Of a stretch of DNA of 64,000 bases, positions 20,234 to 25,429 are shown in pieces (within the stretch, counting starts at the first letter, position 1; every line of letters begins with the position of its first letter). The stretch lies in assembly GCA_035635555.1 (NCBI GenBank), contig DASQAT010000010.1, positions 1 to 64,000 of the forward strand, read 5' to 3'. Source of the stretch: Candidatus Dormiibacterota bacterium. GTDB taxonomy: Bacteria; Acidobacteriota; Polarisedimenticolia; Gp22-AA2. Position numbers and translations under genes: made by a program. Below the pieces are notes generated by a model, which was not told the DNA's origin, searched no databases, and saw nothing but the letters and a program-made list of their open reading frames with translations.

Positions 20234-21598
20234 TCAACCCTTGAGCAGGGCGATCGTGTCGCGGATTTCCTTGGCGTCGGGGGCCTGCGGGCTGAGCTTC
20301 AGGTATTCCTGGTAGTGCTGCACGGCGCCCGGGAAGTCCTGCAGGCGCGTGAGAACGCGCGCCAGCTCCTTGTGTGCGGGGGCGTACTTGGGATCGATCT
20401 CGATCGATTTCTTGAAGGCCTGGGCCGCCTCCTTGTCCTTGTTCTCGTTCCAGGCGTGCACGCCGAGGTTGAAGAACACGGTGGCGGCGTTGCCCGGGTC
20501 CACCGCGATGACCTTCTGGTACATCTCCTCGGACTTCGCCTTATCCTTCCGTTTTTCGTAGATGGCGGCCAGCTCCATGTAGGAGTCCGACTTCGTGGGA
20601 TCGATGGCGCTCGCCTTTTCGAACGCCGCGATCGCCTTGTCCTCCTCGCCACCGAGGACGTACGCCTTCCCGAGCTGGAACCAGACCTTGTCGATGTCCG
20701 GCTGGAGCTCCGTCTCCTTCTCGAGCTCCCCGGCCGCCTCCTTGTAGCGTTCCCCCCTGATGTCGACGTTTCCGAGGAAGTAGTGGGCCCATTTCATGTC
20801 CGGCTTCAGCTCGACCGCCTTCGCGAACGCCTGTGCGGCGCCCGGATCGTCGCCCGTCTCGAACAGGCTCTTGCCCAGATAGAAATAGACCGCCGGGTTG
20901 CCGGTGGGGTCCTTCGCGAGGTAGGCCTTGTACCCTTCGATCGCCTCCGGGTGACGGCCGGCGTCCGCCAGCTCCTTGGCTTTCTTCAGCCCCTCCACGT
21001 TCGCCTTGGGAGCCTCTCCGGAGCCAGGGACCGCGCCAGGGGCGCCCTCGGGGGTGGCAGGTTGCGTCCCGGCCGGCGCCACGGTCGATGCGTTGGATTC
21101 GCCGCCCTCCTTCTTCTTGCGCTCCGCCTGGACCGCCGCCATGAAGTCAGCGTCCTTGGCGATCACGAAGTTCACGAGGTTGCGGCCCGCGTCACCCGGC
21201 AGGGCGAACTGCAGCTCGGGGTACTCCTGCTTGGAGCCCATGATCACATCGCCGCTGCCGCGGTCCGCCTTTTCGGAATCGACGATCTCGTAATGGACCT
21301 TGACCGTCTTGTAGCCCGGCAGTTCGGCGACGACCCGCCACTTCTTGGCGACCGAGATATCCAGGGCCGCGATGAAGAACTTGCCGTCCTTGTTCGTCGT
21401 GAGGGGAGCGATCTTTTTCTTGACGTCGACGCCCTCGAAATTGATCTTCACCTTGGGCACGGGCTTGCCCTGGGGGTCGGTCACGACACCCCACACCTTC
21501 GTGATGGCGTCCGCGTAGGCCGGCTTCAGCGATACGACGGCCACGGTCAGGGCCACCGCCGCCGCGGCCGCCAGGAACCTTCGTTGCGTCCGTGTCAT
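20234..21598 (-). CDS. Exported TPR protein with N-terminal carboxypeptidase-regulatory-like domain
   Basis: 454 residues from the ATG at 21598 (GGAGGAG 7 bases upstream; a longer frame to 21652 lacks this). A signal peptide ends around YADA, followed by a carboxypeptidase-D regulatory-like beta-sandwich (KVWGVVTDPQGKPVPKVKI, about 30-125), a Ser/Ala/Pro linker and about seven TPRs (200-450). The start overlaps the stop of the four-helix membrane gene by ATGA, making this the last gene of the apbE operon. Probably periplasmic; it may scaffold the flavin/barrel components, but that is inference. Confidence 0.8.
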   Translation of the reverse strand: MTRTQRRFLAAAAAVALTVAVVSLKPAYADAITKVWGVVTDPQGKPVPKVKINFEGVDVKKKIAPLTTNKDGKFFIAALDISVAKKWRVVAELPGYKTVKVHYEIVDSEKADRGSGDVIMGSKQEYPELQFALPGDAGRNLVNFVIAKDADFMAAVQAERKKKEGGESNASTVAPAGTQPATPEGAPGAVPGSGEAPKANVEGLKKAKELADAGRHPEAIEGYKAYLAKDPTGNPAVYFYLGKSLFETGDDPGAAQAFAKAVELKPDMKWAHYFLGNVDIRGERYKEAAGELEKETELQPDIDKVWFQLGKAYVLGGEEDKAIAAFEKASAIDPTKSDSYMELAAIYEKRKDKAKSEEMYQKVIAVDPGNAATVFFNLGVHAWNENKDKEAAQAFKKSIEIDPKYAPAHKELARVLTRLQDFPGAVQHYQEYLKLSPQAPDAKEIRDTIALLKG

Positions 21599-22140
21599 GG
21601 CGTTATCTCCTCCCGTCCGGCGGGCCTGCGCACCGCCCGGCGCCGGACCCAAGATCTTATACCCCGTCGTCCGGGACGATCAAGATCGCGGATCGAACGA
21701 CGGGCACGCGATGTGCCCGCCCGGGACCGGCCGACCAGGAGGTGCCCGGCGAACAGAAGCGCGTAGAGACCCCCCGAGACCAGGTGCGCTCCGACCAGAA
21801 CGCGCTTCACGGCCGGGTCGGTGACGACTTGCAGGAGATAGCCCGAGGCGATCATCGACGGGGCCAGGAGGAGAAGCACAAGACCGGTGGCGCGACCGTG
21901 GCGCTGGCGCGGGTCGAGCAGCCGATCCACGATGTGGTCTCGCGCGATCAGGCCCAGTGCGAACACCGCGATCGGGCCCCCGATCACGTGCAGCGACAGG
22001 GCGTGGGGCTGCCAGGGGTGATGGATGACAGAATACGGGTCGGCCGAGCTCATCAGGTACTTCATGAAGAAGAACGCCGCCCCGGTCAACGACATCCACC
22101 AGGTCGCCAGGCCCACGATCGTCCGCTCGATACCGCTCAC
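21595..22140 (-). CDS. Four-helix integral membrane protein, possible b-type cytochrome
   Basis: 181 residues. Four hydrophobic helices are visible: about 8-28, 48-66 (LSLHVIGGPIAVFALGLIA), 85-105 and 113-135 (VLVGAHLVSGGLYALLFAGHLLVG). Histidines in the second helix (His51) and fourth helix (two His, about 17 residues apart) could ligate haem, as in small cytochrome b-like or DUF4405-type proteins. The haem role is inferred from His placement only. The C-terminus is a highly basic Arg-rich tail. The start overlaps the FMN-protein stop by ATGA, so the genes are tightly coupled. Confidence 0.65.
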   Translation of the reverse strand: MSGIERTIVGLATWWMSLTGAAFFFMKYLMSSADPYSVIHHPWQPHALSLHVIGGPIAVFALGLIARDHIVDRLLDPRQRHGRATGLVLLLLAPSMIASGYLLQVVTDPAVKRVLVGAHLVSGGLYALLFAGHLLVGRSRAGTSRARRSIRDLDRPGRRGIRSWVRRRAVRRPAGREEITP

Positions 22141-22718
22141 GGGCGCGGCTCCTGGAGGCGCTCCTGGCCTGCGGGCCGTGGCGGCGCAACGAACAGCCGG
22201 TGCAGCGCCAGGATTCGCCTCGCCGCCTGGGTGACGGCGCGGGAGGACAGGGTGGCCCCCGTGAGGGCGCGGATCCCCTGGCGCGTCCCGAGGTCCGCGG
22301 CCCCGCGGCCCGGAAACTGGTCCAGCCAGCGCCGGGGCGGCAGGTAGTCCTCAGGCTCGTCGAACGACAGGATGTCGATGCGCTTGATCGTCGCGTCCGG
22401 GCCGACGAGGATCAGGACGGTTTCGGGAAGTGTGCGCACCAGATGGGTGTCGAAGTAGCCATAGCCCAGCACCCGGCCGGCGCTCGTGCCGACGGTGTAG
22501 GGGACGACCCGCGCCTCCACAGGCGCTCCCGCCGACTCCGCGGCGCGACGGACCTGCTCCTCGTCCAGGTAGAGAGTCTTGCGCTCGACCTCGGCCGGCG
22601 GCGGGAATGCGGCGTCGAGGGCCTGTTGCACGGTCATATAGACCCGCGCGGCGGCCCCCCCCGCGGGGAGGAACAGCGCCAGGAGCAGGACCAGGATCAG
22701 GTGGCGAGCGGTCATCAT
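22137..22718 (-). CDS. Periplasmic FMN-binding domain protein (covalent flavin acceptor)
   Basis: 193 residues with a signal peptide (LILVLLLALFLPAGGAAA). The FMN-binding domain carries GIRALTGATLSS; Thr156 is the residue to which ApbE-type transferases attach FMN in NqrC/RnfG-like proteins. YGYFDTHLVR and ETVLILVGPDATIKRIDIL are the preceding beta strands. The ApbE enzyme that would load the flavin is encoded two genes upstream. Its start shares a base with the barrel gene stop (TGATG). This is most likely the soluble or membrane-tethered electron carrier of the operon. Confidence 0.85.
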   Translation of the reverse strand: MMTARHLILVLLLALFLPAGGAAARVYMTVQQALDAAFPPPAEVERKTLYLDEEQVRRAAESAGAPVEARVVPYTVGTSAGRVLGYGYFDTHLVRTLPETVLILVGPDATIKRIDILSFDEPEDYLPPRRWLDQFPGRGAADLGTRQGIRALTGATLSSRAVTQAARRILALHRLFVAPPRPAGQERLQEPRP

Positions 22719-24208
22719 CAGAAGAGGTATCCGAGCGCGAAATTGAACTGGTCGACACCGGTGCCGGCACGGTTTCCAGAGTCCTGCACGTCCGCCTTGA
22801 GGACGATGTTCGGGATCGGCCGGAAGGTCAAGCCGTACGTCTTCACGGTGCGGTCGTTTCCGGGGTCACGGGAGTACCCAGGTGACACCTCCGCCTGCGT
22901 GTCCAGGACCTCGTAACGCACGAAGGGACTCAGCTCGCGTTCGGAGTGGCTCAGGAGGGTCAGGATGTTGAAGGCTGCCTCGCCGTACCATCCCGCGGTG
23001 CGCGCGCCGATCGCCGTCCCGCGCGTGGGGTCGGTCGCGAGCAGCGGGTCGTGCGCCAGGCTGACCGCCTCCGCGTCGCTCAGGATGCCGCGGGCATAAA
23101 GACCGCGCAGGTGGACCCCGCGCGCATTCCACTCGGCGTGAGCGTCCCACAGCGTCAGACGCGGATGTCCGAGGGCCGAGTCCCCCTGGCCGGTCCGTCC
23201 CGTGAAGGCCGCTGTTCCCAGCAGAAACCCCGGCGCCGGAGTCCAGTCGACGCGGGCCGTCACGGCCAGGTCCTCGGCGCGAGAGGCCGCCCCCTCCTGT
23301 CTCCCCTCCCGGATCCCCTCGTCGGCGGAGAATCCCGAGGCGTCCAGGGAGGCCACCACGTAGGCGCGGTACGAGATCGGACCGAGATCACCGTAGACGC
23401 CGAGCCCGTTCTCCCTCCAGGTCGAGGGGATGATCAGCGTCTCCACCTCCGGACGAAGGGCGCCGTGGAAGATGGGCGGCTCGTGCAGCTCGGTCAGGAA
23501 TCCCAGCGGCACCAGGAGCAGCCCCCCGCGCATGCCGAAGCGCCGCCAGGGGCGGTAGTCTACGTAGGCGAACTCGACAGCCGTCTCCCCCGGCTCCCCC
23601 TCCCCCGAGACCGCGTGCTCGTACTCGACCTCCGAGTTGAACAGCAGGTGGTCGGTCCACTTGTACCCGAAATAGAAGACGGCACGCTCGAGGTCGAGGG
23701 TGTCCGGGACACCCGCGGGCGCGCCATCGTCCCGGCGCGCCGCGAAGTCCTGGTACAGCATCTGCCCGTATCCGCCGATCGTCACGCCGCGCTTGACGGC
23801 ATAGACCTTCGACGCCGCCGGGCCGAAGCCGGGAACCGGCCCCTGCGCGGCCGGCGGCGTCGCGGCCGCTTCGCCGATGCGCAGCCTTTCGATTTCCAGC
23901 GCCAGGGCGTCGATCCGCTTCTGCAGCTCCTCCAGCGTGGGCGCCCCCGCCCCCTCTTCGCGCGCCGCCCGCATCGAATCGATTTCCGCCCGCAGCTTCG
24001 CGACCAGCGCCTCGAGCTCGGCGATCCGATCCGCCAGGCTCCTCGTCTCCTCGGCGCTCGATGCGGTCCGTTCATCCGTCGCGCCCTGGGCCGTCGGGCC
24101 GGGCCTCCCCGCGGTCCACGCGACGGTCAGCAGGGCCCAGGCGATCGCAGCCCGCCTCGGACCGCCGCGGCGCCGCCCGGCCCGTGCCTGTCCTTGGGTG
24201 CGGTTCAC
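22718..24208 (-). CDS. Porin-like outer-membrane beta-barrel protein with N-terminal coiled coil
   Basis: 496 residues from a GTG at 24208 that overlaps the apbE stop (GTGA) and has AGGAGG 4 bases upstream. A signal peptide is followed by a coiled coil (about 50-115, LADRIAELEALVAKLRAEI) and a barrel of alternating amphipathic strands ending in FALGYLF, a terminal Phe typical of Bam substrates. The layout resembles phosphate-selective (OprP/OprO-like) porins with a trimerising N-terminal coil. Substrate unknown. Being between apbE and the FMN protein, it may import or export the substrate or shuttle of the redox system. Confidence 0.8.
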   Translation of the reverse strand: MNRTQGQARAGRRRGGPRRAAIAWALLTVAWTAGRPGPTAQGATDERTASSAEETRSLADRIAELEALVAKLRAEIDSMRAAREEGAGAPTLEELQKRIDALALEIERLRIGEAAATPPAAQGPVPGFGPAASKVYAVKRGVTIGGYGQMLYQDFAARRDDGAPAGVPDTLDLERAVFYFGYKWTDHLLFNSEVEYEHAVSGEGEPGETAVEFAYVDYRPWRRFGMRGGLLLVPLGFLTELHEPPIFHGALRPEVETLIIPSTWRENGLGVYGDLGPISYRAYVVASLDASGFSADEGIREGRQEGAASRAEDLAVTARVDWTPAPGFLLGTAAFTGRTGQGDSALGHPRLTLWDAHAEWNARGVHLRGLYARGILSDAEAVSLAHDPLLATDPTRGTAIGARTAGWYGEAAFNILTLLSHSERELSPFVRYEVLDTQAEVSPGYSRDPGNDRTVKTYGLTFRPIPNIVLKADVQDSGNRAGTGVDQFNFALGYLF

Positions 24209-25347
24209 CTGGCCTCCTTGCGCCATTCGGCGGCTCGACCCGCCCGTTCCCGTCGTGAACCCCCGCCTTCGAACCGCTCTTCGAAGGCGCGGGACGACTT
24301 CGACCGGAGCGCGCCCGTATCGTCGCGCCACACGTACAGCGCCGGGAGGTCGCGCGCCTCCGCCCACGCCGATCCCCTCTCCGGCCCCATGACGAAGAGG
24401 GCGGTCGACAGGGCGTCGGCCGAGGTCGCGTCGCGGGCTGCGACGGTCAGGGATCCCTGGAAGCGGGCCGGCCGCCTTTCCGCGGGGTCGAGGATGTGGC
24501 CGATCCGGCCCCGTGGTGTCTCCACGAAGCGCTCCGAGTTGCTCGAGGTCGCCAGGGACAGGCCGTCGATGCCGACGACTGCGATCACGCTGTCCCGGTC
24601 CCCCGGGTCCGCGATGCCGATGCTCCACGCCGGAAAACGCACGGGATGCCCGATCGCCAGGACCTGTCCGCCGAAATCGAGGAGGGCGCGCCGCACTCCA
24701 TGGCGCCTCAGGACGCCGGCCGCCGCATCCAAAGCAATGCCCTTGCCGATTCCCCCGAGATCGAGTCCCACGCCTTCGGTGTCGAAGCGCACCGAGCGCG
24801 TCCTGCGATGGAGATGCACGTGGCGCCAGCCGATCGGCGGCCTCACGGAGGAAGCCGTCTCGCCCTCCGCCGCCACGGCTGGACTCTCCGGGTCCGGCAT
24901 GCGGCCGTCGTCACCGCGCAGACCGAGGGCACGGACCAGGGGCTCCACCGTGGGATCGAAGGCACCGCCGGTCTCTTCCGCCCAGCCCAGGGCGACGCGC
25001 ACCGCGCGGAAGAGCTCACGCGAGCAGAGCACCGGAGCCCGCGCCGCCTTGTCGTTGAGGCGCGAGACCTCGCTCTCGCGCCGCCAGTTGCTGAAGATCC
25101 CCTCGAGACGGGCCACCTCGTCGAACGCGGCTTCGAGGGCTCCGGCGGGCGCCGGGCCGTCCGTCTCGATCGCCAGACGGGTGCCCATGAGGAAACGGGC
25201 CCGGGCCGTCCCGCCCTGCCCGCTCGCGGCATCGTCCTGCGCGGAGAGGCGGCTGGGACCTGCGGCGATGAGACAGATGAGCACGCCGGCCGCCGCGGCG
25301 CGATGGGCTGCGCGGCACCGCACGCCAGACGACTGTCCGATCCGCAT
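24205..25347 (-). CDS. apbE: FAD:protein FMN transferase
   Basis: 380 residues. ApbE cleaves FAD and attaches FMN by a phosphoester bond to Thr/Ser of target proteins outside the cytoplasm. An N-terminal export signal, RFLMGTRLAIETDG, FSNWRRESEVSRLN, GVGLDLGGIGKGIALD (about 200), LLDFGGQVLAIG and the C-terminal DATSADALSTALFVMG (metal-binding) are all present. First gene of the operon; its likely substrate is the FMN-domain protein downstream. The promoter and a Fur-like palindrome lie in the 80 bases upstream. Confidence 0.93.
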   Translation of the reverse strand: MRIGQSSGVRCRAAHRAAAAGVLICLIAAGPSRLSAQDDAASGQGGTARARFLMGTRLAIETDGPAPAGALEAAFDEVARLEGIFSNWRRESEVSRLNDKAARAPVLCSRELFRAVRVALGWAEETGGAFDPTVEPLVRALGLRGDDGRMPDPESPAVAAEGETASSVRPPIGWRHVHLHRRTRSVRFDTEGVGLDLGGIGKGIALDAAAGVLRRHGVRRALLDFGGQVLAIGHPVRFPAWSIGIADPGDRDSVIAVVGIDGLSLATSSNSERFVETPRGRIGHILDPAERRPARFQGSLTVAARDATSADALSTALFVMGPERGSAWAEARDLPALYVWRDDTGALRSKSSRAFEERFEGGGSRRERAGRAAEWRKEAR

Positions 25348-25371
25348 GTCCGGTCCCCGGGCTCGTTGTGA

Positions 25372-25388
25372 TTGCGACTCAGTCTCAA
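25372..25388 (-). promoter_or_regulatory. Fur-like inverted repeat over the apbE operon start site
   Basis: An 8-1-8 inverted repeat, TTGAGACT-G-AGTCGCAA on the minus strand, with one mismatch between half-sites. It resembles the 7-1-7 Fur box form TGAGAAT-n-ATTCTCA. It lies 11 bases past the -10 element, at about +5 to +21, where a repressor would block initiation. The regulator is inferred. Confidence 0.45.
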
Positions 25389-25399
25389 TTAGGTCGCGT

Positions 25400-25429
25400 A
25401 CTCTACCGCGGGGCGCGACGGGCTGTCAA
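25400..25429 (-). promoter_or_regulatory. Promoter of the apbE flavin operon
   Basis: Minus strand: perfect TTGACA (25429-25424), 18-base spacer, TAGAGT (25405-25400). The predicted start is near 25393, about 46 bases before the apbE ATG. Confidence 0.6.

Follow-up and report, generated by a model that had tools for sequence, protein, structure and literature searches.

A predicted Fur-controlled operon for a porin, a flavoprotein, and a four-helix membrane protein as a probable assimilatory ferric reductase system

A five-gene operon in the window (the whole stretch of DNA that was analyzed, 64,000 nucleotides) probably codes for a Fur-repressed assimilatory ferric reductase, in which electrons pass from quinol through heme b and FMN to Fe(III) and which has a porin of its own and hands Fe(II) to FeoB or FTR1. 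If this is correct, it puts a name to an iron starvation route in several phyla for which metagenomes are the main source of knowledge, and flavinylation-based electron transfer gains a porin and a family of small cytochromes that has not been assigned.

Operon structure

The genes encoding ApbE, the porin, the FMN_bind protein, the four-helix membrane protein (MEM), and the TPR protein form, in that order of transcription, a single minus-strand operon (20234-25347). All five overlapping or touching genes claimed in the original prediction for positions 20234-25429 are present on the minus strand, and each junction between them is a start/stop overlap of 1 to 4 bases (GTGA, TGATG, GTGA, and ATGA, from the end of ApbE to the start of the TPR gene). 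The features are as follows.

20234..21598, minus strand: exported TPR protein with a CarboxypepD_reg domain (Pfam); its gene has an ATGA overlap with the MEM gene
21595..22140, minus strand: four-helix membrane protein (MEM), a predicted di-heme cytochrome b (invariant histidines, four predicted helices)
22137..22718, minus strand: periplasmic FMN_bind protein, predicted to carry covalent FMN on Thr156 (PF04205, 2.2e-6; R-x-x-T-G-A-T)
22718..24208, minus strand: 16-strand outer-membrane porin with an N-terminal coiled coil (GTG start at 24208)
24205..25347, minus strand: ApbE, exported FAD:protein FMN transferase (PF02424, E value of 5.5e-66, residues 54-336)
25371..25389, no strand assigned: Fur-type palindrome ATTGAGACTGAGTCGCAAT, 19 bp, about 24 bases ahead of the ApbE ATG
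25400..25429, minus strand: sigma70-like promoter TTGACA-18-TAGAGT, directly ahead of the palindrome

No match to this promoter appeared in 50 shuffles. The palindrome sits just behind it, so the original placement of an inverted repeat at the transcription start is correct. An exact match to ATTGAGACTGAGTCGCAAT occurs only once in the 4.28-Mb genome, at 25371-25389.

Phyletic distribution

Searches with the FMN protein gave matches in 56 of 149 related genomes, and in 40 neighborhoods around these matches the gene order was nearly always porin, FMN protein, four-helix protein, with ApbE encoded either before or after them. When used to scan named genomes, the porin alignment yielded 550 confirmed stretches, the best 80 of which were kept and read; the FMN gene adjoins the porin gene in all of these best 80. 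Judging by record titles, they belong to Acidobacteriota, Elusimicrobia, Gemmatimonadota, Nitrospirota, and Ignavibacteria/Bacteroidia, as well as to single metagenome-assembled genomes (MAGs) of Gammaproteobacteria, Deltaproteobacteria, and Schekmanbacteria. A named-genome scan with the four-helix protein as the sole query gave no matches. Removal of duplicates left 106 distinct loci.

The porin gene is located directly upstream of the FMN gene in 103 of the 106 loci, an adjacency that is partly conditioned, as the loci were selected by these two proteins; MEM, its replacement ALT (see below), ApbE, Fur, and FeoB played no part in the selection. The slot after the FMN gene is occupied by MEM in 84 loci and by ALT in 19, never by both. 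Two of the three loci with neither simply end there (short contigs), and the third carries MEM on the other strand. An ApbE gene is found near the trio of porin, FMN protein, and four-helix protein in 78 loci. Absence of co-conservation outside this genome, which would have refuted the original prediction, is thus not what was found: the porin-FMN-cytochrome trio is kept in many phyla.

Some loci (L118, L123, L125-L127, L131, L134-L137, L141, and L143), mostly from MAGs titled Holophagales or Thermoanaerobaculia, retain the trio but have no Fur-type box and no ApbE gene close to it.

Links to iron

A Fur-family gene is encoded upstream on the same strand, at a distance of at most 7 kb, in 26 of the 106 loci, which come, judging by record titles, from Acidobacteriota, Elusimicrobia, Nitrospirota, and Gemmatimonadota. 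FeoB-like matches were detected upstream in 11 of the 106 loci, from Acidobacteriota, Nitrospirota, Ignavibacteria, Bacteroidia, and Elusimicrobia; the match in L045 is merely a 309-base fragment, and one representative was confirmed to combine FeoB_N with FeoB_C (PF02421 and PF07664). For 98 loci, palindromes were scored in the 500 bases that precede the first gene of the operon and in 1,960 random windows from the same loci. Scores of at least 22 were reached by 44% of the operons and 0.6% of the control windows, and scores of at least 20 by 57% and 2.3%, respectively. The scoring core was picked after the boxes had been seen, so the evidence lies in the contrast with the controls and not in a P value. 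Some of the upstream palindromes, such as AATGATAATCATTCTCATT, are near-textbook Fur boxes. The resemblance of the repeat to a Fur site, noted originally in a single sequence, is matched by a strong enrichment of Fur-type palindromes upstream of such operons. Together with the Fur and FeoB genes, these boxes support the originally suggested iron-controlled electron transfer or metal reduction and uptake, and with it iron control of the operon, on the basis of comparative genomics only and without expression data.

The genome that contains the window encodes a single Fur-family protein. Besides the exact copy, this genome has two other matches to ATTGAGACTGAGTCGCAAT, one (3 mismatches) located 47 bases ahead of the fur gene and the other inside an unrelated reading frame. 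The stop codon of fur overlaps the start of a gene for an FTR1-FtrD fusion (iron permease), which places the two in one operon. With a box ahead of fur and FTR1-FtrD, the permease operon has the same type of box as the porin operon, and the proposed iron link is thereby supported within this genome as well. In all 13 genomes of the lineage that hold the full-length FTR1-FtrD permease, fur directly precedes it, and in all 13 the best-scoring 19-mer of the fur-permease locus lies at the fur promoter; one of these genomes (G012) is classed in the same class and not, unlike the rest of this order-level set, in the same order. No FeoB, Nramp, or Zip importers were found in the genome that contains the window.

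In those genomes where the cluster begins with a Fur-family gene, its product could respond to a metal other than iron. The whole device might even serve a different metal under a Zur- or manganese-type Fur relative, as the Fur families are hard to separate by sequence and the NCBIfam matches of the single Fur all fall below the curated cutoffs. Such an assignment is highly improbable in view of the FeoB and FTR1-FtrD partners and of the best relatives of this Fur in the PDB, which are ferric uptake regulators, a ranking with which NCBIfam agrees.

In the genomes with loci L041 and L042 (considered with L181 and L179), one Fur gene heads the porin operon and another precedes the FTR1 permease, and the respective boxes differ somewhat. 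The two Fur paralogues of these genomes may divide the work.

Flavinylation of the FMN_bind protein

ApbE carries the DLGGIGKG and TSADALSTALFV motifs and is inferred to flavinylate the FMN_bind protein of the same operon. In profile searches, the closest relatives of the latter with solved structures are those of RnfG (best E value, 2e-8). The canonical ApbE substrate motif, D-x-x-[S/T]-G-A-[S/T] (PMC12052999), is not met by these FMN proteins: in 41 sequences, the Asp position is occupied by Arg (30), His (9), or Pro (2), and the first [S/T] is Ala in 7, while the Gly and the final Thr/Ser are found in all 41. The window protein has Arg150 in place of the usual Asp. Thus, the numbering of the covalent-FMN motif TGAT with Thr156 was correct in the original prediction, but the motif lacks its usual Asp. 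An Asp-to-Ala change in the motif of a model protein was reported to have only a minor effect (PMC12052999), so that flavinylation is still expected here, albeit with no flavin data.

The four-helix membrane protein and its replacement

Residues H43, H61, H111, and H125 of MEM are invariant in an alignment of 40 sequences (A2). Its AlphaFold2 model (pLDDT of 95) has helices at residues 2-21, 36-67, 75-95, and 101-130 and places the pairs H43/H61 (helix 36-67) and H111/H125 (helix 101-130) at matching depths, which meets the criterion set for them. Histidines paired in this manner between helices are the arrangement of bis-histidine cytochromes b. The histidines that had been described as suitably placed are therefore four invariant ones in the positions of a di-heme cytochrome b, and MEM is predicted to be such a cytochrome, in the absence of heme data. 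Hydrogenase cytochrome b (HyaC) and cytochrome b6f rank high in the Foldseek output without reaching significance (E value of 0.33 for HyaC). Weak PF01292 matches were seen in 15 of 40 MEM members, and PF14358 also matches some of them weakly; the window protein has no Pfam family above the cutoff.

ALT, the four-helix-like protein encoded directly after the FMN gene in L082, L128, L150, and other loci, contains H-x-H plus a third histidine. Its conserved motifs are E-x-x-H-x-H, H-L, and W-L-x-R-F, and it represents a small, unannotated membrane family that matches no Pfam family. ALT and MEM were considered as homologues, and hhalign revealed no relation between them. ALT may be another heme protein.

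The trio could also be envisaged as an envelope redox repair or maturation system (sulfoxide, thiol, or cofactor reduction) that is merely in greater demand when iron is scarce, given that pairs of flavin and cytochrome b have varied roles elsewhere, as in the MsrQ-like systems (PMC8238504). We regard this as very unlikely, since such a system would not account for the linkage to FeoB, for the iron permease under a shared box, or for the invariant porin partner.

The porin

The AlphaFold2 model of the porin (pLDDT of 88) has 16 strands, and its Foldseek matches are OmpC, OmpF, and OmpM1 (E values of about 1e-12). A long and highly conserved loop, residues 172-203, occupies the L3 position between strands 5 and 6, so that the protein meets the definition of a general 16-strand porin. 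Residues E132, E134, and E136 are invariant and alternate along strand 3, and H181, E182, and R191 fall in the L3 position; both sets are inferred to line the pore. Assignment to Pfam Porin_O_P was rejected, as only 14 of 39 members match it (1.2e-5 at best) and the window protein does not. The porin could serve some other solute.

Porin-cytochrome conduits, such as MtrAB and OmbB-OmaB-OmcB, consist of an outer-membrane barrel and a periplasmic redox protein, which is a multiheme cytochrome. The operon described here likewise encodes a barrel plus a periplasmic redox protein; it differs in that the latter is a flavoprotein and the barrel is modeled as a 16-strand porin, in which the L3 loop is conserved. 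Whether the porin and the FMN protein together make up an outer-membrane redox conduit, with the FMN protein docked where the barrel opens to the periplasm and Fe(III) reduced in or beyond the pore, is doubtful, albeit worth keeping in mind. Such a conduit would be a flavin-based counterpart of the porin-cytochrome ones and a TonB-independent and siderophore-independent iron route common to many uncultivated lineages. It is unlikely that the trio, again as a flavin counterpart of those conduits, serves dissimilatory respiration by exporting quinol electrons to external acceptors, with Fur control reflecting the role of iron as an acceptor. A predicted membrane cytochrome, a periplasmic flavoprotein, and a strictly linked porin would all suit extracellular electron transfer, but the Fur-type boxes and the linkage to Fur, FeoB, and FTR1 point to assimilation controlled by starvation, and no multiheme cytochrome was seen among the conserved neighbors that were read, with not every neighbor annotated.

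Proposed electron path

In the assimilatory ferric reductase favored here, Fur would leave the box at the transcription start when iron is short. MEM, as a predicted di-heme cytochrome b, would then accept electrons from quinol in the membrane, or from a donor in the cytoplasm, carry them to its periplasmic face, and pass them to the FMN protein, flavinylated by the coexpressed ApbE. The FMN protein would reduce Fe(III), or ferric chelates, entering via the porin, and the resulting Fe(II) could be imported by FeoB, whose gene is part of the cluster in some lineages; in the genome that contains the window, the importer would be the FTR1-FtrD permease behind its Fur-type box. Computation supplied the layout and co-conservation of the operon, the Fur genes and boxes, the FeoB and FTR1 linkage, the predicted folds, the invariant histidines, and the flavinylation-like motif. 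That FMN and heme are bound, which way the electrons flow, that Fe(III) is the substrate, what the porin selects, and that Fur represses the operon are inferences. The motif without Asp, the nonsignificant Foldseek matches of MEM, the Holophagales-type loci with neither box nor ApbE, and the lack of any experiment count against this model.

Relation to known systems

Gene clusters encoding PepSY-like, DUF2271, and ApbE proteins are Fur repressed in Shewanella and Caulobacter and have been linked to iron assimilation (Meheust et al. 2021, PMC8238504). They share ApbE with the present operon, together with features that are predicted for it: an extracytosolic protein that is flavinylated, an electron donor in the membrane, control by Fur, and a connection to iron assimilation. 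They differ from it in that the flavoprotein here is of the FMN_bind type, the small four-helix protein is a different one, and there is a dedicated barrel with a general porin fold, in place of which TonB receptors are encoded in some of the published clusters (PMC8238504). Small flavinylation-associated cytochromes have been published (PMC11334425), and the MsrQ-like and DUF4405 cytochromes (PMC8238504, PMC11334425) are, as is predicted for MEM, conserved-histidine heme b membrane proteins encoded beside apbE; however, DUF4405 is described as having six transmembrane helices, compared to four in MEM. FtrABCD is an Fe2+-only uptake system (PMC11966278), and both it and those P19-FTR1 clusters that include a gene for FMN binding (PMC8238504, PMC11966278) resemble the present system in combining an Fe(II)-dependent FTR1-type permease with a flavoprotein partner. 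Here, in contrast, the permease belongs to a separate Fur-boxed operon and the flavoprotein is accompanied by a porin and a predicted cytochrome.

A literature search retrieved no paper describing the porin-FMN-cytochrome combination, and the word "porin" is absent from the main texts of PMC8238504 and PMC11334425 (supplementary tables not covered). This set is predicted to work like the published flavinylation-based iron reduction, yet it is not of the PepSY, MsrQ, or DUF4405 type. If the model is correct, the set would make testable whether a barrel with a porin fold can, with no TonB involved, be dedicated to a ferric reductase of the periplasm as its partner.

Accessory genes and locus variants

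The TPR protein, originally presented as a partner of the barrel, does belong to the operon in the window but lies outside the conserved unit: found in just 15 of the 106 loci, it was rejected as a core member and is an accessory, lineage-specific local addition confined to close relatives.

A second ApbE gene is encoded on the opposite strand just past the operon in L097, L124, and L142, and L071 has a tandem pair of porin genes ahead of the FMN gene. In two loci from one genome (L062:5710-8013 and L105:6957-9260), ApbE and the porin form a single 768-residue open frame with no intervening stop, possibly a natural fusion or else a sequence error. The same two possibilities apply to L119:1982-4606, at a contig end, where a single open frame runs through the porin and the FMN protein without a stop codon separating them.
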